Shown in pieces: positions 6,066-20,436 of a stretch of 64,000 bases of DNA. Each line of letters starts with the position of its first letter. Positions within the stretch are counted from its first letter, which is position 1. The DNA is from Methylovulum miyakonense HT12. GTDB lineage: Bacteria > Pseudomonadota > Gammaproteobacteria > Methylococcales > Methylomonadaceae. Made by a program: the position numbers and the translations under genes. The notes under the pieces are model-generated. The model was not told the DNA's origin. It worked only from the letters and a program-made list of their open reading frames with translations, and did no database searches. The DNA lies in assembly GCF_000384075.1 (NCBI RefSeq), contig NZ_KB913025.1, positions 1,058,119-1,122,118 of the forward strand, written 5' to 3'.

Positions 6066-6419
6066 CTATTTGGCACGTTTTGTGGAGTTATAATTGTAAG
6101 AGCTCACAACCCCCCGCTTGTCGAACTTGATCACTAAATCTTCGGCTTGGTTTTCGCCAAATGCCGTTAGGTAATAATTTCCGTAGGTCCATGTTTTCAG
6201 GCCGTTATCAATGCCCGTACGCCATGGGGTACCGAAGGTGGTAAAGACATCGTTTTGCGTCGTTTCGCCAATGCGGATCGACTGCACTTGGCCCGCAGGG
6301 AATTCATGCCCGACCGTAGCGCACCCGGCCACCATTAAAAGACATGACATGGCCAGGCAACGGCGGACCCAATGCAACGGCCCCGAAGAAAACATATTAC
6401 AGTTCATAGCAGATTTCAT
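6066..6419 (-). CDS. Small lipoprotein, BamE/SmpA-like fold
   Basis: 117 residues if the ATG at 6419 is used; ATG 6428 and TTG 6434 are alternatives, and a GGGG tract lies about 9 bases before 6419. Charged RR is followed by the hydrophobic stretch LAMSCLLMVAGC, a lipobox. The mature part has IRIGETTQNDVFTTFGTPWR, the pattern G-x-T-x-x-D-V-x-x-x-F-G-x-P typical of SmpA/OmlA/BamE folds, then KTWTYGNYY and a strand LVIKFDKRGVVSSY. It is probably an envelope lipoprotein with a BamE-like fold, not necessarily BamE itself. Confidence 0.75.
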   Translation of the reverse strand: MKSAMNCNMFSSGPLHWVRRCLAMSCLLMVAGCATVGHEFPAGQVQSIRIGETTQNDVFTTFGTPWRTGIDNGLKTWTYGNYYLTAFGENQAEDLVIKFDKRGVVSSYNYNSTKRAK

Positions 6420-6586
6420 GAATATCATCCCCAAAAAGAATTATCGTGATTGTAAAAGTCTTATCTGTCAACTACCTACCACCAAGAACCCCGTTTAATT
6501 TCCGGTAAAACCTCCCCAACGGCTATAGCCCTGCAAAAACCAGCCAAAGCCGTCGTTTTTACTTCATACGTAGCTCTGGACAACAC

Positions 6587-9070
6587 CTAAATGCTTTGCG
6601 GTTTAGGCTGGTGCCCTTTAAGGCATAAGGCTTCAAAATCTTTCGCCGCCATCGGATGGTGCCAAAAAAAACCCTGGCCATTCTCACAGCCCAATTGGGT
6701 CAATTGCTCGGCCTGCTCATGGGTTTCTATGCCTTCTGCCAAGGTCTGCAATTCGAGCGTCTTGCCCAATTGTATGATGGCCTGGACTATAGCGCTATCT
6801 TCGCTTTTGCCGGAACTAAGCCCCCGGGTAAAAGATTGGTCGATTTTTAATTTGTTGATTGGAAATTGTTTGAGATAACTTAGCGAAGAATAGCCGGTAC
6901 CAAAATCATCTATGGCAAAACTGATGCCCAGCGCCTTCAGTTCATGGATCACTTTAATCACCGAATGGCTGTCAACCATCAGCACGGATTCAGTCAGCTC
7001 CAGCTCAAGATACTTAGGCTCCAAGCCGGAAAGGGCCAACGCCGCTTTCACCGACTCCACCAAATCACCACGCCTGAACTGCACTGACGATATATTGACA
7101 GTGACCAATAGCTTTAAGCCCACATCATGCCAGTGGCGGTTCTGTAAACACGCCTGTTGCAAGACCCAATTGCCGATCGGCAGCATCATGCCATTGTCTT
7201 CTGCGATAGGGATAAATTTTTTAGGCGGTATGCTGGTGAGCTTATCAGGTTGCCACCGTAACAGGGCTTCCACACCGATAATATGGTTGTCATGTAAAGC
7301 AAACATGGGTTGGAAATATAATTGGAATTGCTTTTTTTCCAATGCCACCAGCAGTTTGCTTTCGATGGTGACGCGTTCGATTGACGCTTGGTCCATATCT
7401 TCGGCAAAAAATTTGAAGGTGTTCCGGCCTTTATTTTTCGCCGCGTACATCGCGGTGTCAGCTTTGGTCAGCAGCTTTTGGAAAGATATGCCGTCTATAG
7501 GGAACAGGCTGATGCCAATGCTGAACGAGGTGGAAACGGTAACCCCTTCGATGGCGAACGGTTTATGCAATTGTTCGAGGATTTTCATGGCAATGCGTGT
7601 CGCTATTTTGGCGTCAGGCAGATCGGTAAGGATAATGATAAATTCGTCACCGCCTTGGCGGCATACCGAATCCACCTGCCGGACGCAATGCGACAGACGG
7701 CCCGCGATCCCTTGCAGCAAAAGGTCTCCGACATTATGCCCCAGGGTATCGTTGATCTGCTTGAAGCGGTCCAAATCAAGGAACAATACCGCCACCAAGG
7801 TATTGTTCCGTAATGCCTGGGCCTTGGCCTGGTCGAAACGGTCGTTCAGTAAAGTGCGGTTAGGCAACTTAGTCAATGCATCGTGATGAGCCAGATATTC
7901 GATTTTGGCTTCTGCGGCTTTCCGGCCTGTGATGTCGGAAAAAATGCAGATATAGTTGGTGATGAAACCTTGGGAGTTGCGGATGACAGAAATCCCCAGC
8001 AACACGGGATAGGTTTCACCATTTTTACGGACATCCCAGATTTCACCTTGCCAATAACCATTTTCCTTAACGGCTTTGCACATGCCTTGGTAATAAGCCT
8101 GGTCATGTTGCTGGGTGGACAAGATATAAGGCGTCTTGTTTCTCGCCTCACTTTCCAGATAACCGGTGATCCTGCTATAGGCCTCGTTGCTGGATAAAAT
8201 CCTGGTGTTGGCGTCACAAAGGATGATGCCTTCACCGCTGTATTCAAATACTTTCGCCAACAGCTGCAACCTGTCGGCGGCTATTTTGCTGTCGTTGATG
8301 TCGGTATAAGTGCCTAACATCCTCAAGGGTCGGCCATCATGATCCCGTTCCACAATACTGCCCAAACATAAGACCCACTTCCAAGAACCGTCAGCACAAC
8401 GCTGCCTAAATTCAACCCGGTACTCAGGAAGTTCACCCGCCAAATAAGCTTGGCAAGTGGCATTGATCAGGTCAAAATCGCCAGGGTGGATGTTCGAGGA
8501 CCAATTATCAAGCGTGATCGCCGTATATTCTTGAGGGTCATAGCCCAACATGTTGGCGAACTCGCCATTCACGACACCCTGGTCGGTTTGGATATTAAAA
8601 TCCCACATCCCTTGCTTTGCGGCGGACAACGACAAACGCAAGCGTTCTTCACTTTGCCGCAATTGCCGCTGTTTCTCGGACAATAATTGGTTCATCAAAC
8701 GGTTCCGCAAGACGAAACGGACACGATAAGGCAGCAGCATCCATTGCATTGGCTTGCCGATAAAATCGGTCGCCCCTAACTGATAAGCCAGTTCCACACA
8801 CTGGATATCCTCAACGGCGGTCATCATGACTATCGGCACCTCGCTGTGCAGCTCGCCACAGAGCAGGCGCAAACACTCAAAACCATCCATTTCGGGCATG
8901 ATGACATCAAGCAGCACCAAGTCAGGTGGCTTAGCCATAAACAAGGCTATGCCTTGCCGGCCATTTTCGGCCTCCATGATTTCAAAACCATTCCTACCCA
9001 AAGCCTCAGATGCCAACATCCGGCTCATCGCATCATCATCAATAATCAGGACCCGTGGCTTATCAGTCAT
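6587..9070 (-). CDS. Response regulator REC-PAS-PAS-GGDEF-EAL, c-di-GMP turnover
   Basis: 827 residues from ATG 9070; a start at 9100 would overlap the preceding gene. REC domain (about 1-120) with IIDDDAMS, phospho-acceptor DLVLLDVIMPEMDGFECL and lysine in FIGKPMQW. Two PAS domains (about 145-265 and 275-390). The GGDEF domain looks active: LDLDRFKQINDTLGHNVGD, signature RQGGDEFIIIL, and the product-inhibition I-site RQVD just before it. The EAL domain also looks active: IGVEALLRW, VNISSVQF, LELELTES, DDFGTGYSSL, KLKIDQSF and LAEGIE. Last gene of a six-gene operon, 19 bp after its neighbour. It probably switches between making and breaking c-di-GMP on phosphorylation by the upstream hybrid kinase. 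Confidence 0.92.
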   Translation of the reverse strand: MTDKPRVLIIDDDAMSRMLASEALGRNGFEIMEAENGRQGIALFMAKPPDLVLLDVIMPEMDGFECLRLLCGELHSEVPIVMMTAVEDIQCVELAYQLGATDFIGKPMQWMLLPYRVRFVLRNRLMNQLLSEKQRQLRQSEERLRLSLSAAKQGMWDFNIQTDQGVVNGEFANMLGYDPQEYTAITLDNWSSNIHPGDFDLINATCQAYLAGELPEYRVEFRQRCADGSWKWVLCLGSIVERDHDGRPLRMLGTYTDINDSKIAADRLQLLAKVFEYSGEGIILCDANTRILSSNEAYSRITGYLESEARNKTPYILSTQQHDQAYYQGMCKAVKENGYWQGEIWDVRKNGETYPVLLGISVIRNSQGFITNYICIFSDITGRKAAEAKIEYLAHHDALTKLPNRTLLNDRFDQAKAQALRNNTLVAVLFLDLDRFKQINDTLGHNVGDLLLQGIAGRLSHCVRQVDSVCRQGGDEFIIILTDLPDAKIATRIAMKILEQLHKPFAIEGVTVSTSFSIGISLFPIDGISFQKLLTKADTAMYAAKNKGRNTFKFFAEDMDQASIERVTIESKLLVALEKKQFQLYFQPMFALHDNHIIGVEALLRWQPDKLTSIPPKKFIPIAEDNGMMLPIGNWVLQQACLQNRHWHDVGLKLLVTVNISSVQFRRGDLVESVKAALALSGLEPKYLELELTESVLMVDSHSVIKVIHELKALGISFAIDDFGTGYSSLSYLKQFPINKLKIDQSFTRGLSSGKSEDSAIVQAIIQLGKTLELQTLAEGIETHEQAEQLTQLGCENGQGFFWHHPMAAKDFEALCLKGHQPKPQSI

Positions 9071-9089
9071 GCCTGTTCTTCTTGGCAGG

Positions 9090-11228
9090 TTACCGGCCAA
9101 AACCTAGCACAAACTTTGCGAACTCTGCGGCAGGCAATGGTTTGCTATACAAAAAGCCTTGGGCGAATTCACAACCTTGTTGCAGCAAAAAGGCGACTTG
9201 CTCCTGATGGTCGACCCCTTCCGCCACCACATCCAAAGACAATGACTTGGCGAGCCCCAATATGGCTTGGGTGATCGCCTTGTCATCGTCATTAAGGTGG
9301 ACGTCGCGGATGAAGGAACGGTCAATTTTTAGCTCCGTGATGGGCAATTTTTTTAAGTATGACAGGGAAGAATACCCCGTACCAAAATCATCAATGCTAA
9401 TTTGTACGCCTAATGCCCTGAGTTGTTTTACGGTGCCCAACACATCTTTGATGCCATCAAGCAAAATGCTTTCCGTCAGCTCCAATTTCAGATGCCCGGG
9501 GGCTAAATTCAAACGCGCCAATATTTGGCTGACCTCATCGGCAAACGTGTCTTTACGGAACTGGGTGGAGGAAACGTTAATTGAAATGACCTGCAACGGC
9601 AGCCCTTGCTGTTGCCACTGGCGCATTTGCGTACAGGCCGATTCCAACACCCAATGGCTAATGTAGTTTATTAACCCGGATTCTTCAGCAATCGGTATAA
9701 ATTGTGACGGGGGCACTAGGCCCAATTCAGGATGCTGCCAACGGATCAGGGCTTCGCAACCGATCACTGTCTTGGTGCGCATATTGACAATGGCGTGATA
9801 GAAAAGCAGCAATTCGTCACGTTCAATCGCACGTTGGAGGTTATTTTCCATTGATAGCTTATGGAATGCGGCGACATTCAGCGACTTCCTAAAAAACTGG
9901 TAGTCATTTTGCCCCTGCTCACGGGCATGGCTCATGGCAACCTTGCCGTTTTTGATGAAGCCATCCTCATCAACGCCATCCCCCGGATAGACAGCGATGC
10001 CGATGCTCATGCTGAGAAAAATTTCGTGCTCTTCAATACTGAACGGCTGTTCGATAACTTGGAAAACGCTTTTGGCTATTTTTATGCTATCGCTAGTGTC
10101 TTTTATGTTGCTGACCAAGATGACAAATTCGTCCCCGCCCACCCTGGACACCAGCATTTGGTTGATGTCGTAATCGTGGTTTGCATCATAGCCGACATTG
10201 ACCGGGACATAAGCACATTCCTGAACCTTAGCGACGAGCCGGTCAGCAAACAATTTAACGATCTGGTCCCCCACGCTCGGCCCCAAGGTTTCGATAACGC
10301 GCTTTACCCGGTCGACGCTGATAAACAATGCCGACATCTCGGCATTGTTGAGGTTGCTGTAAGCCATCGCCTGGCCGAGGATCATTTTGAAGAGCTTACG
10401 GTTTGGCAAATGTGTCAAAGGGTCGTAATAGGACAGGAAGCGTATCTGCTCTTCAATCCTCCGGCGTTCCGTAATATCTTGGATGGTGCCATGGATACGC
10501 GTCACGTCATTACCCACAACAATAGGCTCGCCGTGAACCAGCAAGACATTGTCAGAACCGTTGGCGTGGCGTATTTGGCATTCCAAGTGGAAATTTTGCT
10601 TGTTTTTGGCGCAGCGTCCGATTGCCTGAAGGAGCTTTTCCGCATCGGCATTGACCAGCCTTTTATAAATGTCCCGGCACTGCCCGTCAAATTCATCGGG
10701 CGCCACATCCAGCACATTAAAAACCTCGTCAGACCACTCCATCTTGTCTTCTTCCACCACCCAATCCCAACTGCCAAGACGGGCGATTTTTTGGGCGGTG
10801 CGTAAATCCGCCTCGCTTTTTGCCAATTCGCTTAAAGCCGAACTGGCACGCAGGAAATAACGTAAGCGGTGCGGCAACGTCGGCCAGTGAATCGGTTTGA
10901 CAATAAAGTCGGTGGCGCCCAATTCAAAAGACCGGTTAATCGAATCCGTATCGTCCGCGCCCGTCAGCATCACAATCGGCAACAATTCCATTCCGGGGAT
11001 TTTGCGTATCAGTTGCAAACATTCAAAACCGTCCATTTCCGGCATCATGACATCCAGCAACACCAGCTCCGGCCGCCGGGCGTTGATCATGCCAATGCCA
11101 TCACGCCCATTGGCGACGCTTAGGACCTCAAACCCCTCCCTGTCCAAAACATCATGCAACATCAAGCCTATCATGTGATCGTCGTCAATCGTCAAAATAA
11201 GGCTGCGTGAGGGTTGCTGCTCTCTCAT
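9090..11228 (-). CDS. Response regulator REC-PAS-GGDEF-EAL, probably a phosphodiesterase
   Basis: 712 residues. REC domain with TIDDDHM, phospho-acceptor Asp59 in ELVLLDVMMPEMDGFE and lysine in FIVKPIHW. A PAS domain (about 135-255, ARLGSWDWVVEED) precedes GGDEF and EAL domains. The GGDEF motif itself is intact (RVGGDEFVILV), but the substrate helix reads VDRVKRVIETLGPSVGD where active enzymes have F-K-x-I-N-D-x-x-G-H, so the guanine-binding Asn and following Asp are missing; no RxxD I-site precedes it. The EAL residues are complete (CEALIRW, INVSS, LELTES, DDFGTG, ELKIDRSF, VAEGVD, EFAQGF). Overlaps the kinase gene by 4 bp (ATGA), so the two are translationally coupled. Confidence 0.92.
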   Translation of the reverse strand: MREQQPSRSLILTIDDDHMIGLMLHDVLDREGFEVLSVANGRDGIGMINARRPELVLLDVMMPEMDGFECLQLIRKIPGMELLPIVMLTGADDTDSINRSFELGATDFIVKPIHWPTLPHRLRYFLRASSALSELAKSEADLRTAQKIARLGSWDWVVEEDKMEWSDEVFNVLDVAPDEFDGQCRDIYKRLVNADAEKLLQAIGRCAKNKQNFHLECQIRHANGSDNVLLVHGEPIVVGNDVTRIHGTIQDITERRRIEEQIRFLSYYDPLTHLPNRKLFKMILGQAMAYSNLNNAEMSALFISVDRVKRVIETLGPSVGDQIVKLFADRLVAKVQECAYVPVNVGYDANHDYDINQMLVSRVGGDEFVILVSNIKDTSDSIKIAKSVFQVIEQPFSIEEHEIFLSMSIGIAVYPGDGVDEDGFIKNGKVAMSHAREQGQNDYQFFRKSLNVAAFHKLSMENNLQRAIERDELLLFYHAIVNMRTKTVIGCEALIRWQHPELGLVPPSQFIPIAEESGLINYISHWVLESACTQMRQWQQQGLPLQVISINVSSTQFRKDTFADEVSQILARLNLAPGHLKLELTESILLDGIKDVLGTVKQLRALGVQISIDDFGTGYSSLSYLKKLPITELKIDRSFIRDVHLNDDDKAITQAILGLAKSLSLDVVAEGVDHQEQVAFLLQQGCEFAQGFLYSKPLPAAEFAKFVLGFGR

Positions 11229-14002
11229 GATAAATCCTGTTGTAATAATATGGGTAACACCTGCTGGAATTCGTTATTCATGTTCTCAACAAGCCCTTTA
11301 TCGAATTCCAACGAGCCATCGCGCGCGCCATGTTCCAAATTACGGGCCATTTCAGCAAGACAGAGGACGCCGACATTGGCGGCAGCCGATTTTAAACTGT
11401 GGGCGGCTTGGCGCACCGCTTCCCCATCCTGTTCAATCATGGCTACCCGCAATTTTTCGATTAACTGCGCCGAGCTGCTCTGGAACATTTGCAATAGGTT
11501 AGCCACCAACGTGTCCCCCCCCATCTTACGCAACGTGTTCAAGGGTGTCGGGTCGAACCGGCCGGTATCAGTATAAGCCTGTTGGGAAAATAGTTTATCT
11601 GATTCTCGCTTAATCGCGGTTTTTTTGGCTTTCAATAAACTGATCACCTTGTCGCGCAAAACTTCAATGGAAATCGGTTTTGCCAAATAATCGGTCATAC
11701 CGGCATCCAAACACTTCTCCCGGTCACCTTCCATGGCATTCGCTGTCAATGCCACTATGGGCACCGGCCCCTCCCCTGATTTTTGTTCCAGGACGCGAAT
11801 TTCATGGGTTGCCGTGTAACCATCCATTTCCGGCATCATACAATCCATGAGGATCAAATCAATGTTCCCCCTTTTGAAGATGTCCAGGGCTTCATAGCCG
11901 TTAACGGCCACTTCAACATGGCAACCGATCACCTTCAGTATGGCCTTAACAATTTCCTGGTTGATCGGGTTGTCTTCAGCCAGCAAGATATGCGCATCTT
12001 GCAAACCGGTTTCCAGGCTCGTGTCCGTTTGGTTTTCGGCAATCAGCTTCAGCAACGCCTCCTGTAAGATACGTTTACGCAGCGGCTTGTGCAAATACAA
12101 GTCGCAGCCGCTGATGCGGAAGCTGTCCAGCTCGTCATCATAGGCACTGGACGTGATGATGACAATACGCATCTTGGCAAAGCGGCTGTCATTGCGGATT
12201 TGTTGGCAAAGTTCGGCACCGTTCATGCCCAACATTTTCATATCCACCAAAGCAAAATCGTAGCTTTGGCCCAGACGGACGGACTGGTCAAGGATCTCCA
12301 AAGCCCGCATCCCGGTTTCGGCAAGCCGGGAATTCATGCCCAGATTCAACAGGTAATTGGTAAGGATTTTGGCATTGGTCGGGTTATCTTCAACAATCAG
12401 GGCGCGTTTGCCAAGCAAATCGGTTTTTTGCAACGTTTGGCTGGGAACGGCGGCCAACGCCTTACGCAACGGCAAATGCAAAATGAACGCCGTGTACGCC
12501 CCGACCTTGGATTCCACATTGATCGTCCCCCCCATCAGCTCCGTAAGCTCCTTGCTAATCGCCAGCCCCAACCCGGAGCCCCCGTATTTACGCGTGGTCG
12601 AACCATCGGCTTGGCTAAAGGATTTGAACAGTTTCGCCATCGCATCAGGCTTGATGCCTATGCCCGTGTCACTGATGCGGAAATTCAGGTAGAAGCTGTC
12701 ACCTAAGCCATAATGTTCGTTTTCCAATTTGCTGACATGCAGCCTGACCGAGCCGACATCCGTGAATTTGACGGCATTGGAAAGCAAATTGGTCAGGATT
12801 TGGCGTAACCGGTAAGGGTCGCCCCTGACGGAATGGGGGACGTTGGTTTCCAAAGTGCAACTTAGCTCAATATTTTTGCTGTGCGCCCTATCGAAAAACA
12901 GTCCGGTCAAATGGTCGATCAACTCCGGCAAGTTAAAGTCGATTTCCTCCAATTCCAGCTTACCGGCCTCAATTTTAGAAAAGTCCAAAATGTCATTGAT
13001 CAATGTCAGCAGCGCATCCGCCGAGCTGAACACCGTTTCGGTGTATTGCCTTTGGGTCTCCGTCAATTCCGTGCTTAACAACAATTCCGTCATGCCCAGC
13101 ACCCCGTTCATCGGGGTACGGATTTCATGGCTCATAGTGGCCAAAAACTGGGATTTGGCGAGATTGGCGGCATGGGCTTCTTCCACCGAATGGCGTAAGT
13201 CCGCTGTCCTGATTTCCACCTCATGTTCAAGCTGGCCGCGTTGCCGCTCCAGTTGCTCGTCACGTTCGTGTATCTGCCCTATCATTTGGTTGAAGCTTTT
13301 CACCAATTGGCCTATTTCGTCCTGGCCTTCCCCTTCCGCCCTGACCGTGTAATTTTTTTCCCGTGACACTTGTTGGGCCAACTGGGATAAGCGTATCACG
13401 GGTGCCGAAATCAAAGTGGCCAAGCGCCGCCCATAAAAAGAGCTCAGCAGAAAAGCCGCCAGCGTGACGAGGGAAATTTGCCCCCAATTATAAAACAGCC
13501 CCCACCACATAGGGCGCAGGTCCACCACCATATACAAATAACCTGCCGCCTCACCATTTTGGTAGACGGGCTGGACTTCCGTATGCGTCAATAACTCGAA
13601 TCGGTTCTCTTGGAGTTGGCTCTGGGCCTCGACAAGTGTCCCCGGAACCGTAGAGAAATGGTTTTTGGTGATGAAATCGGCAAACCGTTCGCCGACATAG
13701 TCGGCAAACTGGACACCTTCGCTGGTATATAGCTCGGCGGCGATGATATTCGGTTTGCTGCGCAACGCCGCAAGAATGTCCGTTGCCGACCGGCTATCGT
13801 TAAACAGCAAAGCGGCGGCAGCATTAAAACCAATCATATTTCCTGTGGTTTTAATGTCGGCCACTATTTGCCCGCGCTCCTTCCAAAATTCTGTGAAGCT
13901 ACTGACCAACAGGGTAAACACCAAGGCCATACCGACGGTCAACGCTTGTAAGCGGCGCAGCTTGCTAGTGATCGGTAAATCGGCAAAGTGTTGTCGTCTC
14001 AT
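11225..14002 (-). CDS. Hybrid histidine kinase CHASE8-HAMP-HisKA-HATPase-REC-REC-HPt
   Basis: 925 residues. TM1 about 20-40, a periplasmic domain about 45-150, TM2 about 172-190, HAMP about 192-245 and a coiled coil to 280. The periplasmic part has the pattern NAAAALLFND, ILAALRSKPNIIAAELYTSEG, which is that of CHASE8 domains as in YfiN/TpbB. The HisKA site is His292 in ATMSHEIRTPMNG. The ATPase has LTNLLSNAVKFTD, SDTGIGI and YGGSGLGLAI. Two receivers follow (Asp in FALVDMKM and in LILMDCMMPEMDG), and an HPt domain with AAHSLKSAAANVG. All phosphorelay residues are present. The gene sits 21 bp after the yfiR-like gene and is coupled to the downstream response regulator, its likely output. Confidence 0.93.
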   Translation of the reverse strand: MRRQHFADLPITSKLRRLQALTVGMALVFTLLVSSFTEFWKERGQIVADIKTTGNMIGFNAAAALLFNDSRSATDILAALRSKPNIIAAELYTSEGVQFADYVGERFADFITKNHFSTVPGTLVEAQSQLQENRFELLTHTEVQPVYQNGEAAGYLYMVVDLRPMWWGLFYNWGQISLVTLAAFLLSSFYGRRLATLISAPVIRLSQLAQQVSREKNYTVRAEGEGQDEIGQLVKSFNQMIGQIHERDEQLERQRGQLEHEVEIRTADLRHSVEEAHAANLAKSQFLATMSHEIRTPMNGVLGMTELLLSTELTETQRQYTETVFSSADALLTLINDILDFSKIEAGKLELEEIDFNLPELIDHLTGLFFDRAHSKNIELSCTLETNVPHSVRGDPYRLRQILTNLLSNAVKFTDVGSVRLHVSKLENEHYGLGDSFYLNFRISDTGIGIKPDAMAKLFKSFSQADGSTTRKYGGSGLGLAISKELTELMGGTINVESKVGAYTAFILHLPLRKALAAVPSQTLQKTDLLGKRALIVEDNPTNAKILTNYLLNLGMNSRLAETGMRALEILDQSVRLGQSYDFALVDMKMLGMNGAELCQQIRNDSRFAKMRIVIITSSAYDDELDSFRISGCDLYLHKPLRKRILQEALLKLIAENQTDTSLETGLQDAHILLAEDNPINQEIVKAILKVIGCHVEVAVNGYEALDIFKRGNIDLILMDCMMPEMDGYTATHEIRVLEQKSGEGPVPIVALTANAMEGDREKCLDAGMTDYLAKPISIEVLRDKVISLLKAKKTAIKRESDKLFSQQAYTDTGRFDPTPLNTLRKMGGDTLVANLLQMFQSSSAQLIEKLRVAMIEQDGEAVRQAAHSLKSAAANVGVLCLAEMARNLEHGARDGSLEFDKGLVENMNNEFQQVLPILLQQDLS

Positions 14003-14023
14003 AAATTATTGGCCATCATCACA

Positions 14024-14554
14024 TTATTTTGCAGTGTTAACATTCTTCGCCAGTTTAAGCAATTTGGCACTAATATGCACATTTTCAGCGTTCGCCAGCT
14101 CAAGATTAATTTCAAAAGTAAGGCGGCTGCCATCCTGGACCAAGCCAATCATGCCACCGTAGGCGATGAAGCCAGGCTGGTCGCTCACGGTCACTATGGG
14201 CAACCCCTTCAAAACCCCGATAATGGCCCGGGCATTTTCAGAAGCGCCAATAAAGACAATGTGGCAATTTTTCAGCTCGTCATTGCCCACTTCGCGGCGG
14301 ACCAGCATCGGCTTCCCATAAATGGTCTTGTTTTCCAATACCAATAAACTATCGCCTAAATGGTCGTTTTCCGTCGTACACAAGTTATAAGCCACTTGGC
14401 TGGCGGCTTGCGGCCATTCAATAAATTTAAAAAAATTGTATAAAAAAGCCGTTTTAACCGCCGCTTCGCCGCTGGCCCCCGCCTGGCCATTAATGGCCAA
14501 TACCAGCATCACGGCCAACAATGTTCGGACAATAAAGGAGGTTTTTTTTGACAT
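14024..14554 (-). CDS. YfiR family periplasmic protein (DUF4154)
   Basis: 176 residues. Signal peptide of about 27 residues (hydrophobic VRTLLAVMLVLAINGQAGA). The mature protein begins AVKTAFLYNFFKFIEWP, the diagnostic opening of DUF4154/YfiR, and continues with CHIVFIGASENA, ITVSDQPGF-like VTVSDQPGFIAYGG, MIGLVQDGSRLTFEIN and a C-terminal LELANAENVHISAKLLKLA. Family knowledge: in Pseudomonas YfiR is a periplasmic repressor that binds the CHASE8 domain of the cyclase YfiN. Here the following gene encodes a CHASE8 kinase, so the predicted partner is a kinase. The start follows the receptor stop by 4 bp, with AAAGGAGG-like bases upstream in the coding orientation not seen, so translation may depend on coupling. 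Confidence 0.9.
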   Translation of the reverse strand: MSKKTSFIVRTLLAVMLVLAINGQAGASGEAAVKTAFLYNFFKFIEWPQAASQVAYNLCTTENDHLGDSLLVLENKTIYGKPMLVRREVGNDELKNCHIVFIGASENARAIIGVLKGLPIVTVSDQPGFIAYGGMIGLVQDGSRLTFEINLELANAENVHISAKLLKLAKNVNTAK

Positions 14555-14558
14555 AGCC

Positions 14559-16658
14559 TTAAAAATTCCAACGTACGGTTGCGTACACTTCGCGTTGCAC
14601 GGTGGTCGGTACCGAATAGATAAAATTACCGAATTCGGCGTGTTGCTTGTCCAGCAGGTTGCGCCCGACTAAGGCCAACTCCAGCCCATGGCCCACATCC
14701 CAGGCCAAACGGGCGTCCAGCTCCTGATAAGCGGCGACCGATTGTGGCTCAACGGTTATGCCATCAACAAAACGCCAGTTCAAATCCAGGTTGAGCTGTG
14801 GCGTGATCTTGTGCATGGACCAGAGCATGGCCTGATGGGTGGGGAAACTGTCCTTAAACAATATAAAGGCGCCCGCAGGGGCATCGCCCGCAAGCCTGAA
14901 TTGCTGCCCGGCATAGGCATAGCTGGCACGGAGTTTCCAGGTATCGGCGACCTGCCAGTCTACCGTGGCTTCACCGCCATATACCGTAGCCGAACCATAA
15001 TTGGCAAAATTGGCAATTTGTACGGCATAGCCTGAAGCAAGATGGGAAAGGTCTAGCGATTTGGGGGCAAAACTGCACAAATCATCATAATCGTAATAGT
15101 AAAGCGATATGTCCGAAGCCAATTTTTCAGTTAATTCGCCACGCCAACCCAATTCATATCCCAACAGGGTTTCCGAACGCATCTGCTTATTGCCAACAAG
15201 CGATAGTAACGTGACCGGATTGCCGGGCGATGCCGCCCCCCCACCGACGGGCGGAAGCACGGCGGTGTTGTAGCCAAAATCTTGTTCTATCCAATTCGGT
15301 GTCCGTACGGAACGCGAAACCGAAGCCCAAAAGGCATGCTTTTTGACAGGGGTCCACGACAACCGTGCGCTAGGCTGCCATTCAAACTCGGTGACCGGGT
15401 TGTGCTCAAGTTTGCCACCTAAGGTAAGTTTCCATTGTCCGGGGATCAAGGTGATCTCGTCTTGGGCAAATAAGCTGTAAATTTGGTCTAGCCGCTGACT
15501 GGGTGTCCAGCTTAGGTCAAGGCTATTTTCGGTCTGGTTGTGGTTCAATCTGGCGCCACTGCCCCAAACCAAGCTATGCTGGCCGTTTAGCCGTATATTG
15601 TGTTGGAAGTCAACATCGACGCTGTCTATCTGATAGCCGCTATGCAGGGCATTGGCTTTACGTTCATTACGGTTCCAAAATAGCCTTAACAGGGTGCTGG
15701 ACGCATTGCCGGGCCGATGCTCCCAACGCCCCAGCAAATAATGCCCTGAAAGGTCCGCGTCAGTCGCTATGGCGCGCGAATACGGTGGCGCTACGACCGG
15801 TGTCCGGATAGCGCTGGCCTTCGGTTGGTCCTGTTCCGCGCCGCCGCTAAACCCCGAAAAGGCATCGCCTTGCAAGGTCAATTTGTCGGTGATGCCAATA
15901 TCTTTATCGAAACGGAAACCAATTTTGCCTAAACGGCTTTCATCACCCGCGTTGCCAGCCGCCACAGCCCCAATCTTGCCGGATCCGTCATATTCGCTAT
16001 AGCGGCCATAGACTTTAAGGTAAGCTTGTTTGCCAAGATCCGCACCATACCGCAAGCCGCCTCCCTGGCGCATGCTGCCACCCTGCCCGGACACCAAGCC
16101 GCCTTGGGAATTTTTGGCTTTTTTGGTGATGATATTCACCACGCCATTGACGGCATTCGCGCCCCATAAACTGCCGCCGGAGCCACGGATAACTTCAATA
16201 CGCTCAATATCCTCCATCAGCACGTCTTCCTGATCCCACCAAACGACCGAAAACATCGGCGTATAAAGGGTGCGCCCGTCCATCAGGACCAGTAATTTGG
16301 TGCCAAATTGGCTGTTGAACCCGCGCGTCGACACCGCCCATTTATTGCCGTCGATACGGGCGACATGCATACCCGGAACCATACGCAAGGCCTCGGGGAT
16401 GCTGGTCGCACCGGAACGGCGGATTGCATCGCTGTTTAAGACGTAAATCGCCGAAGGGACATTTTTCAAATCCGTCGACGTCCTGGTGATGGATGTCACA
16501 TCCAAGTCCAACAATTCCTCCATGCTTAATCCGGTCAGATCCGGCACATCTTGCTCCTCGGGAACTTGATTGGCGGCAAAAGCAATGGGCGCAAAGGCGG
16601 TTAGCGCCATTATCGCCAGGATTAATTGGGGGACGCTTAGCGCACGGCCGGTCGGCAT
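14559..16658 (-). CDS. TonB-dependent outer-membrane receptor (second of tandem pair)
   Basis: About 699 residues from ATG 16658; ATG 16661 and an upstream start at 16688 are alternatives, but GGGAG sits five bases before 16658. Signal peptide ends near APIAFA. The N-terminus has LTGLSMEELLDLDVTSI, the short conserved stretch seen before the plug in a class of TonB receptors, which may act as the TonB contact. The plug reads VPSAIYVLNSDAIRRSGATS, PEALRMVPGMHVARI, LVLMDGRTLY, IERIEVIRGSGGSLWGANAV. The beta-barrel ends with the aromatic VYATVRWNF. Ligand unknown. It is followed after 4 bp by the yfiR-like gene. Confidence 0.9.
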   Translation of the reverse strand: MPTGRALSVPQLILAIMALTAFAPIAFAANQVPEEQDVPDLTGLSMEELLDLDVTSITRTSTDLKNVPSAIYVLNSDAIRRSGATSIPEALRMVPGMHVARIDGNKWAVSTRGFNSQFGTKLLVLMDGRTLYTPMFSVVWWDQEDVLMEDIERIEVIRGSGGSLWGANAVNGVVNIITKKAKNSQGGLVSGQGGSMRQGGGLRYGADLGKQAYLKVYGRYSEYDGSGKIGAVAAGNAGDESRLGKIGFRFDKDIGITDKLTLQGDAFSGFSGGAEQDQPKASAIRTPVVAPPYSRAIATDADLSGHYLLGRWEHRPGNASSTLLRLFWNRNERKANALHSGYQIDSVDVDFQHNIRLNGQHSLVWGSGARLNHNQTENSLDLSWTPSQRLDQIYSLFAQDEITLIPGQWKLTLGGKLEHNPVTEFEWQPSARLSWTPVKKHAFWASVSRSVRTPNWIEQDFGYNTAVLPPVGGGAASPGNPVTLLSLVGNKQMRSETLLGYELGWRGELTEKLASDISLYYYDYDDLCSFAPKSLDLSHLASGYAVQIANFANYGSATVYGGEATVDWQVADTWKLRASYAYAGQQFRLAGDAPAGAFILFKDSFPTHQAMLWSMHKITPQLNLDLNWRFVDGITVEPQSVAAYQELDARLAWDVGHGLELALVGRNLLDKQHAEFGNFIYSVPTTVQREVYATVRWNF

Positions 16659-16671
16659 CATCGCTCCCACA

Positions 16672-18648
16672 CTAATAAGTAAGCACAAACTTAAAGCGGA
16701 ACTCCCTCCCGTTCATTAACAAAATATTGTTAACGCCATCACCCACCACTTGATAGTGATCATCCAGCAAATTATAAATACTGGCCGAGAGGTCCAAACC
16801 CTGGACAAGCCGGTCTGAGGTCAAATTGACATTAACCAGATCATAAGCATCCGCCAGCCCCCCCTGCTGGGTTTTACGGTCGCCGATAAAAATGCTTTCC
16901 ACCCCAAGCCTTGCAAAATTGTTAAACAGCGGCTCGGCATAATGCAGTTTGATGAGATGTTCAGGGGCGCCATAAGCCCTTGTCCCCTGGTTAGTTTGAT
17001 CGCTGACAAAATTGTAGGTATAGGAAATTTTTAACAGCCTGCCGCTTCCCCAACGTTTTTCGGCCTCCAACTCGGTGCCATAAATGTGGAATTGACCTGT
17101 GTTTTCAAGCAAGCCGGTGTCCGGGGACACCTGTAAAAACCGTGAAATGTCATTAAAAAACAGTGACCCGAACAACTTAAGCCCATCTGGAGAATTCCAC
17201 TCCATGATGCTTTCATAGCTTTGTATCTGTTCTTCGGCTATCGGCGGGCTTATGTCGAAATAATAAGGGTTATAAGCCAGTTCCGCCGCATTGGGGGCGC
17301 GGAAAGTGGAGCTGTAAAGCAGTTTCAGCGTGGTGCTGGCTAACGGGTTCCATATCAACCCCAGGCGCGGGTTGAGCGGCAAAGCCTTGATCATATGATG
17401 GTAATCGAAACGCAAACCCGCACTTAAAAGCAAACTGTCCGACAGTTGGATATCATCCTGGGCATAAACCTCCACACGATGCCCGTTAAGGTTATTATCG
17501 GCATACAGGGTGTAGGGCGCCACATCGTAAGAGAACTGATGTTGGCGAATATCATATTGATATTCCAAGCCTAGCATGAGCCGTTGCCGGTCAAATGCAC
17601 GGGTGGTCAGTTGCGCATCCCCCCCAAGCCAACGGCCTACAGTGGCATCGTGGAAGACACGCCGTTGGCCAGTTTGGCCAAAAAGATAAGGTTCTTCGGC
17701 CTGGTAATCGTAGCCTTGAAAAAAGCCCTGGAAAAGGGCCGTGGTTTTTTCATTTATGGCTTTGTTATATTTGACGTTGCCGAAAAATTGGCGGTCATCC
17801 GTATAGTTGCCAGGGTCATTGAATATATCGCCCGACACCGCCGCCGGTACCCGTTTAAAGCGGTCAACCACACCGCCGCTTACGGTCAGCCCTTGAAATT
17901 GGATTTTCCCGAACAACCGGTCGGCACGCTCGGCGTCCATGTTATGGGCAACCCCGTTGTTGGTGGCCGGGTTATCGTAAGCCGGAAAAAACAAATTGCC
18001 CGCCCCGGCACTCTCAAAATGTGAAGCGGAAAAGAGCATATCGGCCCCATTCTCCAGTTTTTTGCCATAACTGGCCCGGCCTTTATAGGTGTCAAAACTA
18101 CCTACCTCACCCGCAACTTGTGCGCCTTTAATTGCCTTGCCGCTCTTAGTGACCACGTTGATCAGGCCCAAAAAGGCATTGGCGCCGTAAATTGTCGAGC
18201 CGGAACCGGGGATAAATTCAATCCGTTCGATCAGGTCGGTGTCCAGCATGAATTCTTGGGCGATATTGCCCGTGTCATAGATATTTTCATTCATGCGCAT
18301 GCCATCAATCATGACCAGCACCCGCGAATTGTAATCGTTAGGTTGGATAAAGCCGCGGACCCCCAAAAAACTATAATTGCGGTTATTGGCGGTAAACAAC
18401 CCGCGCATACCGTTCAGCGCGTCCGCTAACGTCCTCCACCCGAAGGTGCGGATATCGCTGGCGTTCAACACGGATACGGAGGAAGGTGATTTATTGGTTT
18501 TTTGCCCCAATCTGGGTGCGCTAATAACTTCAACGTTCAACAGCTCTTCGATGGATAGGTTTGTCAAATCCTCATCAACACTAGAATGCTTGGCATTTAC
18601 TTGGCCGCTCAGAACGGCCAGAATGGCAACGATGGTCTGTTTACGCAT
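16672..18648 (-). CDS. TonB-dependent outer-membrane receptor (first of tandem pair)
   Basis: About 658 residues from ATG 18648; a TTG at 18672 is possible. The signal peptide ends near SGQVNA. It then reads DLTNLSIEELLNVEVISAP, the same pre-plug motif as the next gene, followed by plug motifs SSVSVLNASDIRTFGWRTL, VRGFIQPND, VLVMIDGMRM, IERIEFIPGSGSTIYGANAF and LINVVTKSGK. The barrel ends GREFRFKFVLTY with the terminal aromatic expected for BAM-dependent assembly. Ligand unknown. It is the promoter-proximal gene of the 12-kb operon, so its ligand is a plausible input for the downstream signalling proteins. Confidence 0.9.
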   Translation of the reverse strand: MRKQTIVAILAVLSGQVNAKHSSVDEDLTNLSIEELLNVEVISAPRLGQKTNKSPSSVSVLNASDIRTFGWRTLADALNGMRGLFTANNRNYSFLGVRGFIQPNDYNSRVLVMIDGMRMNENIYDTGNIAQEFMLDTDLIERIEFIPGSGSTIYGANAFLGLINVVTKSGKAIKGAQVAGEVGSFDTYKGRASYGKKLENGADMLFSASHFESAGAGNLFFPAYDNPATNNGVAHNMDAERADRLFGKIQFQGLTVSGGVVDRFKRVPAAVSGDIFNDPGNYTDDRQFFGNVKYNKAINEKTTALFQGFFQGYDYQAEEPYLFGQTGQRRVFHDATVGRWLGGDAQLTTRAFDRQRLMLGLEYQYDIRQHQFSYDVAPYTLYADNNLNGHRVEVYAQDDIQLSDSLLLSAGLRFDYHHMIKALPLNPRLGLIWNPLASTTLKLLYSSTFRAPNAAELAYNPYYFDISPPIAEEQIQSYESIMEWNSPDGLKLFGSLFFNDISRFLQVSPDTGLLENTGQFHIYGTELEAEKRWGSGRLLKISYTYNFVSDQTNQGTRAYGAPEHLIKLHYAEPLFNNFARLGVESIFIGDRKTQQGGLADAYDLVNVNLTSDRLVQGLDLSASIYNLLDDHYQVVGDGVNNILLMNGREFRFKFVLTY

Positions 18649-19080
18649 TACGCTGATAAATCTTGCATTCAAGAGGTGCCGGCAGAAGCAGAAAACACAG
18701 GGCGTGCTTCCTGATAAAACTGGCTATTTTAACGACCAAAGCAAGTGCTAATCCAGCTTTTTTATCCTTAACCCGCTAAAAGTAAGCAATTGAAATTTTT
18801 AGGCAAATTAAAACCACCAGAACCATTCAATGGCAAAATATCCCGGCAATTTTATTACGGCGGCCAGCACCGCCAAAAGCCCCGGATAGGCACCTTCATC
18901 CTACGGTGGCCGCAGAGCGCCGCCGCCCACCGGTAAGATCACGCGCACTTAACGTGCGGCCCTTTTTAAATACCGCTTAAGATATCTTGCGGTACAATCC
19001 CATTGAACAATGGCAGCCCAAAAAGGTCTCCCAATCCATTGGGCTTACAGCCGGATTTTTACAATTTACCGTGAGGAATT
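18649..19080. other. Divergent intergenic region between the receptor operon and the M16 peptidase gene
   Basis: About 430 bp with no credible gene. It must hold the promoter of the six-gene signalling operon on the minus strand and that of the peptidase on the plus strand. A GAGGAATT ribosome-binding site lies just before ATG 19081. I see no convincing Fur box or other named operator. Confidence 0.5.
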
Positions 19081-20436
19081 ATGAAGCATCGGATACTACA
19101 CACCCTGTTACTGTGTTTGCCTGCGTTTGCCAGCCATGCCGAACCCAAGGTTGCCGAAAAGGTTTTGGGTAACGGCCTAAAAGTGCTGGTGAAGGAAGAC
19201 CACCGCTCGCCCGTGGTGGTGTCGCAAGTTTGGTATAAAGTCGGTTCCAGTTACGAACCTAACGGCATCACGGGCATTTCGCACATGCTGGAACACATGA
19301 TGTTCAAAGGCACGGACAAGCATCCCGCCGGGGAATTCTCGCGTATCATTGCCGAAAACGGCGGTGATGAAAACGCCTTTACCGGACGCGATTACACCGC
19401 CTATTTCCAAACCATGGCGGCCTCCAAATTGGCGGTGAGCTTTGAGCTGGAAGCCGACCGGATGCGCCATTTGCATTTGCTGGCGGATGAGCTGAAAAAG
19501 GAATTGGAAGTGGTCACGGAAGAACGGCGGATGCGCACCGAGGACAACCCGCAAGCGAAAATGTCCGAGCAATTTTCCGCAATGGCCTTCACCAGCAGCC
19601 CCTATAAAAACCCGATCATCGGCTGGCCTGTCGATATTGCCAATTACCAAGTCGAGGATTTGCAAGCCTGGTACCAACGCTGGTACGCACCCAACAACGC
19701 GACGCTGGTCGTCGTCGGCGATGTCGAAACCCTCAAGGTTTTTGCCTTGGCGGAACAGTATTTCGGCGGCTTGCAACCTAGCGAGCTCAAGGCATTAAAA
19801 CCACAAACCGAATCCCCGCAACTGGGCGTGCGCAAAATGACCGTGAAAGTCCCCGCCAAATTGCCGTCGGTGGTGTTGGGCTACAAAGTGCCATCGCTAA
19901 AAACCGCCGGACAGGAATGGGAAGCCTATGCGCTGGAAGTGCTGGCGGGGGTGTTGGACGGCGGCTCCAGCGCACGCTTGAGCAAGGAATTGGTACGCGG
20001 CAAACAGCTTGCCGTGTCGGCGGGTGCGGGTTACAACTTTAGCTCGCGTTTATCAGACTTGTTTGAATTGGAAGCGACCCCGGCGGAAGGCAAAACCGTC
20101 TGGGAACTGGAATTGGAGCTGAAAAAACAAATCACGCGCCTACAGCAGGAATTGATCAAAAAAGACGAATTGCAGCGCATCAAAGCCCAAGTGTTGGCAA
20201 GCGCCGTGTATGAGCGCGATTCCAACTTTTATCAGGCCATGCAATTGGGGACACTGGAAACCATTGGCCTAGGTTGGCAAAAAGCCGACGAATATGTCGG
20301 CAAGATCAACCAAGTGACCGCGGAACAAGTGCGTGACGTGGCACGCAAATACTTGCTTGATGATCATTTGAATATCGCTTATCTTGAGCCGCAACCGATA
20401 AACCCAGCAACCGCCCAGAAGAAGGCGGTAAAATAA
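19081..20436 (+). CDS. M16 family zinc peptidase, catalytic subunit
   Basis: 451 residues with a signal peptide ending near PAFASHA. The inverted zinc site HMLEH is at residues 68-72 (GISHMLEHMMFKGT), and the downstream glutamate lies in LEVVTEERRMRTED (about 147). The C-terminal half has the M16 inactive domain with YKVPSLKT and GGSSARLSKELVRGKQLA. Family knowledge: periplasmic M16B peptidases work as a pair of a catalytic and a non-catalytic subunit that close around peptide substrates. The likely partner is at 21400-22701, with one gene between. Confidence 0.92.
   Translation: MKHRILHTLLLCLPAFASHAEPKVAEKVLGNGLKVLVKEDHRSPVVVSQVWYKVGSSYEPNGITGISHMLEHMMFKGTDKHPAGEFSRIIAENGGDENAFTGRDYTAYFQTMAASKLAVSFELEADRMRHLHLLADELKKELEVVTEERRMRTEDNPQAKMSEQFSAMAFTSSPYKNPIIGWPVDIANYQVEDLQAWYQRWYAPNNATLVVVGDVETLKVFALAEQYFGGLQPSELKALKPQTESPQLGVRKMTVKVPAKLPSVVLGYKVPSLKTAGQEWEAYALEVLAGVLDGGSSARLSKELVRGKQLAVSAGAGYNFSSRLSDLFELEATPAEGKTVWELELELKKQITRLQQELIKKDELQRIKAQVLASAVYERDSNFYQAMQLGTLETIGLGWQKADEYVGKINQVTAEQVRDVARKYLLDDHLNIAYLEPQPINPATAQKKAVK

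Follow-up and report, generated by a model that had tools for sequence, protein, structure and literature searches.

The window, the whole stretch of 64,000 nucleotides from Methylovulum miyakonense HT12 that was analysed, carries a run of six minus-strand genes at 6587-18672, each overlapping or nearly touching the next according to the ORF list and Pfam. Going from A to F, neighbouring genes have spacings of -11, -4, 21, 4 and -17, and by Pfam assignment transcription runs through receptor F, receptor E, the YfiR-like D, kinase C, B and A. The features of the operon are as follows.

16672..18672, minus strand: gene F, TonB-dependent receptor (Pfam), 666 aa counted from TTG
18520..18558, minus strand: pre-plug motif of F, LSIEELLNVEVIS, immediately N-terminal of the plug
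14559..16688, minus strand: gene E, TonB-dependent receptor of 709 aa, close to the TOL_0244 family of NCBIfam
16491..16529, minus strand: pre-plug motif of E, LSMEELLDLDVTS
14024..14554, minus strand: gene D, YfiR-like periplasmic protein (DUF4154/YfiR, PF13689), 176 aa
11225..14002, minus strand: gene C, hybrid kinase CHASE8-HAMP-HisKA-HATPase-REC-REC-HPt, 925 aa
9090..11228, minus strand: gene B, REC-PAS-GGDEF-EAL, without an RxxD I-site
6587..9100, minus strand: gene A, REC-PAS-PAS-GGDEF-EAL, with the RxxD I-site RQVD

ORF calls and Pfam agree with the earlier note on six minus-strand genes with small gaps or overlaps and these domains, and the pre-plug motif that it had assigned to both TonB-dependent receptors is indeed common to E and F. 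This six-gene arrangement is far above chance. For gene F, the ATG at 18648 is a likelier start than the TTG and coincides with the position at which that note had ended the operon. The operon is flanked by an M16 peptidase gene divergent from it (19081-20436, plus strand) and, after its end, by a small ORF (6066-6434, minus strand). A promoter scan of 18600-19100 returned a single 9-of-12 site where chance alone would give 0.6, which is no evidence of a promoter in this interval.

Domain analysis revealed all the parts of a multistep phosphorelay, namely a His kinase, receivers and an HPt domain with intact acceptors, plus the separate receivers of A and B. CHASE8 in C scored 56.4 bits against a Pfam cut-off of 27. 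The acceptor motifs SHEIRTP (kinase) and AHSLKS (HPt) look intact, and the receiver Asp is present in REC1 and REC2 of C as well as in the receivers of A and B. Both A and B carry the GGDEF motif, and the EAL signature motifs searched look intact; the QG motif of A was missed by the pattern search, yet NGQGFF is visible in the translation.

Profile, sequence and predicted structure all relate D to YfiR. The protein matched PF13689 at 137.5 bits (Pfam cut-off 24.9) and the PDB YfiR sequence at 1.1e-9, and its predicted model (pLDDT 92) returned YfiR as the best Foldseek matches (3.5e-9), followed by type I periplasmic binding proteins, among them 6k1x, 3lkv and 3lft; the likeness of YfiR to 3lft and 3lkv is already stated in the sections of PMC4655355 considered here. 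The nearest named relatives of D come from Methylovulum, Methylobacter and Methylomonas, which points to a methane-oxidising gammaproteobacterium as the probable host. C59 and C97 of D align with Cys71 and Cys110 of YfiR, a redox-responsive pair according to the same sections of PMC4655355, and at least 90% of the 37 family members in the alignment retain them. D differs from YfiR in lacking the Cys145-Cys152 disulfide pair, the alignment giving Ile and Gly at these positions.

As described in the sections of PMC3375315 and PMC4655355 considered here, YfiBNR of Pseudomonas aeruginosa shares with this operon a YfiR-family periplasmic protein beside a HAMP-containing membrane signalling protein with a periplasmic sensor, a c-di-GMP output, and an outer membrane-periplasm-inner membrane logic. 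The operon differs in that the sensor C is a hybrid kinase rather than a GGDEF cyclase like YfiN, that the c-di-GMP enzymes A and B are separate response regulators, and that receptors stand instead of the lipoprotein YfiB; Pfam found no OmpA/PAL lipoprotein YfiB among the six genes. Within 6 kb of 105 DUF4154 places, a motif regex for OmpA/YfiB that divergent copies may escape yielded one candidate, at L111. In the same locus, at 7409-10129, DUF4154 is joined via an apparent transmembrane segment, recognised by eye, to a PAS-histidine kinase-REC protein.

Part of this architecture has been published. According to the parts of PMC3375315 covered here, yfiB is missing from most of the divergent Yfi operons described in 2012, many of which have GGDEF-EAL, HPt or sensor kinases in place of the GGDEF output, for example a hybrid kinase accompanied by two YfiR in Thauera; a yfiR-yfiN core with a swapped output is common to those operons and to this one. 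The word 'TonB' is absent from the main text of PMC3375315, and those parts of its divergent-operon section contain no outer-membrane receptor, motif or REC-GGDEF-EAL partner that we could find. NCBIfam holds a consecutively numbered trio of the same three kinds, NF053590 (TOL_0244 TonB receptor), NF053591 (TOL_0243 YfiR-like) and NF053592 (HK near YfiR-like). E, D and the N-terminal region of C cover nearly the whole of these models and narrowly miss their curated cut-offs (597.6/645, 111.4/125 and 153.3/194, respectively), while F lies far from the TOL_0244 model (127.3). The kinase and receptor layout behind the idea of a 'rebuilt' Yfi switch is real, but its novelty had been overstated, given the output swaps and missing yfiB published in 2012 and the NCBIfam trio. 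We found no earlier description of receptors standing in for YfiB, of a motif specific to the partner, of a PF04392 counterpart or of the relay fusions presented below, and no treatment of receptor-YfiR coupling among the titles and abstracts that our searches of open-access literature listed.

TOL_0244, the namesake of E's closest NCBIfam family, showed a sevenfold rise on n-C28 alkane versus Tween 80, and its relative OmpS of Alcanivorax dieselolei is described as detecting alkanes and starting alkane signalling. The portions of PMC6304351 and PMC5174103 from which this is drawn mention no YfiR or kinase partner for these alkane receptors.

We surveyed a class sample of 274 genomes, 39 with DUF4154 and 52 with a CHASE8 match over the cut-off, and annotated neighbourhoods with profiles built from domains of the M. 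miyakonense HT12 genome itself. The 108 DUF4154 places comprise 65 from the class sample (three in the window's genome) and 43 from order relatives. From the 71 class places, G233:C416 and G058:C60 were left out; G154:C128 (= L229) also stands outside the 108, as do L034, L067, L107 and L112, where no DUF4154 ORF was called. The sets overlap, L128, L136 and L137 being the same records as L072, L084 and L107.

A CHASE8 gene lies within 3.5 kb in 83/108 DUF4154 places, on the same strand in 83/83 and on the downstream side in 82/83, with a median gap of 4 bases in the class and 11 bases in the relatives; 25/108 places have no CHASE8 gene, some of them due to a contig end. From the other direction, the 274 genomes hold 74 CHASE8 matches over the cut-off, of which 44 are no more than 1 kb from DUF4154 and 28 have none within 4 kb. 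These counts exclude non-conservation of the YfiR-like gene beside CHASE8 kinases, an outcome that the earlier note had named as counting against its reading, and the search for its gene order in other genomes showed such kinases recurring beside YfiR-like genes, usually with a receptor in the module. The complete six-gene order was recovered in seven Methylomonas loci (L130-L135 and L138; 14 loci found, 11 assessed, with L137, L139 and L141 left out).

Among 14 CHASE8 loci without DUF4154 (L114-L127), the neighbours show no common partner; those of L117 include a phosphonate-binding-type protein. Elsewhere in the window's genome, L006 (5218-10335; G000:C1, ~1326217-1331334) combines DUF4154, CHASE8-GGDEF-EAL and a receptor in one operon with no phosphorelay and so offers an internal comparison, and L007 (7174-7788) is a lone DUF4154 gene with no CHASE8 or receptor adjoining. 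The class member G032 has nine DUF4154 genes, several near receptors and not near CHASE8.

Receptors show a comparable linkage. A same-strand receptor lies within 6 kb of DUF4154 in 37/65 places of the class sample and 41/43 of the order relatives (78/108 overall), against a chance expectation of ~3% by our own estimate from 22 plugs in 4.69 Mb. Restricting the count to places with both flanks longer than 6 kb gave 26/44 and 23/23, respectively. In the remaining 30/108 places no receptor on the same strand lies inside 6 kb, in some cases because of a contig end. In the reverse test, which scored up to four candidates per genome, the 274 genomes yielded 32 TOL_0244-like receptors, 24 of them no more than 1.5 kb from DUF4154, and the two co-occur by genome (Fisher p 4e-22). 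Four receptors without a DUF4154 neighbour (L221-L224) belong to two genomes that have several DUF4154 genes at other sites; the motif regex described below accepts two of these receptors, and in the other two a comparable segment can be seen by eye. The receptors of L226 and L227 lack the motif and adjoin a PF04392-like gene and a kinase. In L228 the contig ends inside the segment and a PF04392-like gene is nearby, and L225 has neither a DUF4154 nor a PF04392 partner and fails the regex. An apparent receptor-YfiR fusion (L074, 861 aa) was dropped as evidence and read as an assembly error, because its receptor and kinase genes are split too.

The 83 CHASE8 proteins beside DUF4154 comprise 46 kinases, 28 GGDEF/EAL proteins, 4 fused kinase-relay-GGDEF-EAL proteins and 5 with no output domain detected. 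Of the CHASE8 kinases, 24/46 have a separate REC..GGDEF/EAL gene no more than 6 kb away, as against 0/28 CHASE8-GGDEF proteins; the 22/46 kinases with no REC-GGDEF/EAL gene near count against our best explanation. The fusions, at DUF4154 loci L048, L079, L099 and L106, are single chains of 1632-1696 aa with the architecture CHASE8-HisKA-HATPase-REC-REC-HPt-REC-PAS-GGDEF-EAL; similar fused relay chains occur in L120 and L126, yet without DUF4154. Given these fusions and the adjacency of REC-GGDEF/EAL genes to kinases, we read the phosphorelay as feeding the c-di-GMP enzymes. The DUF4154 tree requires at least seven changes between GGDEF and kinase, but has few well-supported branches. In L019 and L020, CHASE8 kinases of ~1,800 aa with four HPt domains (own profile) adjoin DUF4154.

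The receptor motif has the consensus LSxEEL(x4)VxS and is located just before the plug, a site at which other receptors, aligned by eye, show only TonB-box-like VTA/VTS; in F, again by eye, its VxS end occupies their TonB-box position. A motif regex recognised 10/10 receptors of YfiR-like operons, 0/4 of PF04392 operons and 0/38 others, PF04392 neighbours having been checked for 23 of these 38 (G000, G306). A motif profile trained on 38 module receptors from outside the eight tested genomes, some of them from congeners of the window's genome, gave at least 16.2 bits for 10/10 DUF4154-operon receptors and at most 2.9 bits for the other 42. A plug search produced 38 matches, 30 of which became loci. 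In the wider set the regex was passed by 31/40 receptors at DUF4154 loci of the relatives and the window's own genome, 22/33 of the class and 0/19 at PF04392 loci, compared with 1.4% of shuffled segments. This strict regex misses 20/73 DUF4154-locus receptors, and the receptor of L229, which adjoins DUF4154, fails it with LGLEDLLSMEVTS. A class-only profile was weaker: it scored 27/40 of the relatives' receptors above 8 bits and 11/40 at 4 bits or less, nine of these 11 carrying a SPAEL-type variant. On the class itself, training rows included, 24/33 scored above 8 bits and 8/33 at 4 bits or less, most of these eight truly lacking the segment.

Phylogenetic analysis grouped the module receptors and four PF04392-linked ones in one 28-row group (support 90/87), and gene F in a 9-row receptor branch (support 99/98). 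Because the module receptors form nearly one clade, inheritance may contribute to the motif specificity. In a tree of receptors within 1 kb of DUF4154 (F and the L006 type left out), 200 random pairings gave on average 2.6 of 3 well-supported contrasts (range 1 to 3) in which the motif follows the partner, and none in the opposite direction; three independent contrasts are too few for significance to be within reach. In the predicted receptor model, the motif of E forms a short helix of low confidence.

Motif-less receptors of the same group share their operons with PF04392 'ABC_sub_bind' genes and with kinases, often with GGDEF or GGDEF-EAL at the end. Among 20 loci chosen by PF04392 alone, our own profile found the protein in 17; within the fetched stretch, a kinase or GGDEF-EAL gene is present in 16 of these and a receptor in 14. 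L194-L197, chosen for their receptors, have the PF04392 protein, the kinase or GGDEF-EAL gene and the receptor. Of the 56 PF04392 matches, 24 were studied; the others were 28 located in triple-domain frames, 2 fragments, G279:C3 and one locus resembling a transporter. The parallel operons are listed in one line.

L194-L197, L201-L206, L210-L212, L214-L216, L220, L226, L227: receptor, PF04392-type protein, hybrid kinase or GGDEF-EAL

The PF04392 proteins match known structures by sequence, L194 with 3lkv (5e-15) and L197 with 3lft (6e-10). Since the model of D matches 3lkv and 3lft as well, two relays of related fold fill one slot, and on these sequence and model matches the PF04392 family resembles YfiR in fold. 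Our own profile labelled several PF04392-linked kinases as CHASE8; we do not claim this domain there because Pfam PF17152 was found in 0/8 such kinases and cyclases tried.

We propose, with a probability of about 0.6, that the operon is a trans-envelope signalling module running from receptor E or F through D to C and on to A and B. Receptor E or F would bind an extracellular ligand, and the pre-plug LSxEEL(x4)VxS segment would provide the periplasmic contact that engages or releases D in YfiB's place, as the partner specificity of the motif suggests. D would bind the CHASE8 domain of C and set its kinase activity as YfiR does on YfiN, which homology and adjacency point to. Phosphate would then travel His-Asp-His by way of REC1/REC2 and HPt and on to the A and B receivers, consistent with the fusions and adjacency, and A and B would alter c-di-GMP in one net direction or the other. 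In its general form the module has an exchangeable output, GGDEF-EAL or kinase, and at sister loci an exchangeable periplasmic relay, YfiR-like or a PF04392 binding protein of related fold. The path from ligand through receptor, YfiR-like protein, kinase and phosphotransfer to c-di-GMP, outlined in the earlier note, fits the genomic tests of CHASE8 kinase recurrence, receptor linkage and relay fusions. Outer-membrane receptors probably control the kinase and c-di-GMP enzymes via a small periplasmic go-between. The system is widespread and modular, spans the envelope and represents an extended relative of Yfi. Its gene content and order, domain make-up, linkage and fusions are shown directly, together with the specificity of the motif and the likeness of fold, and we infer the contacts, the phosphotransfer and the ligand steps.

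The alternative that survives best, though we consider it unlikely, is that the receptors only import the ligand, which D (or the PF04392 protein) binds before acting on the kinase, the receptor never touching D. The resemblance of D's fold to type I periplasmic binding proteins (6k1x, 3lkv, 3lft) and the presence of a PF04392 binding-protein family member in D's slot at sister loci are both in line with it. Against this, YfiR is not known to have a ligand, and the LSxEEL segment, of which transport alone has no need, tracks the YfiR-like partner. Lower still we rank a redox or envelope-stress module in which D reports thiol or envelope state via its Cys pair and the receptors are co-regulated neighbours: the conserved C59/C97 (at least 90% of 37 members), aligned with a pair called redox-responsive in the considered sections of PMC4655355, would suit this, but both the receptor linkage (41/43 relatives' loci; 24/32 in reverse) and the receptor motif would go unexplained. 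That there is no single pathway, the receptor and YfiR-like genes co-travelling for uptake and the kinase feeding other regulators, as the 22/46 kinase loci without a nearby REC-GGDEF/EAL gene might suggest, is very improbable in view of the overlapping genes, the four relay-to-GGDEF-EAL fusions adjoining DUF4154 and the seven Methylomonas loci that keep the six-gene order.

Known TonB receptors signal mainly via FecA-type STN domains and sigma/anti-sigma pairs, the FecA-type transducing receptor being a TonB receptor thought to signal inward. E and F differ from this type in having no N-terminal STN domain, with plug and barrel families only in Pfam, and there is no sigma/anti-sigma pair among the six genes. 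Returning to signalling from the receptors through D, we tentatively extend it to a general route, an extension that is appreciably less secure than the proposal for the operon itself. In this route, a dedicated receptor clade with a partner-specific docking segment directly before the plug would signal via a binding-protein-fold relay, either one-lobed YfiR-like or two-lobed PF04392, to a membrane kinase or cyclase and so set c-di-GMP. Both the relay and the output would be swappable cassettes, and YfiBNR would be one particular form, with a lipoprotein having taken over from the receptor. If so, many receptors filed as transporters would be sensors setting c-di-GMP, and the pre-plug motif would make them findable by sequence. 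YfiR-like proteins without YfiB would gain an outer-membrane partner, and the contact between YfiR and a receptor peptide would be directly testable.

PF04392 domains also occur in tandem: a frame of ~992 aa at G000:C1:53694-56492 contains three of them, and similar frames are present in at least seven relatives.
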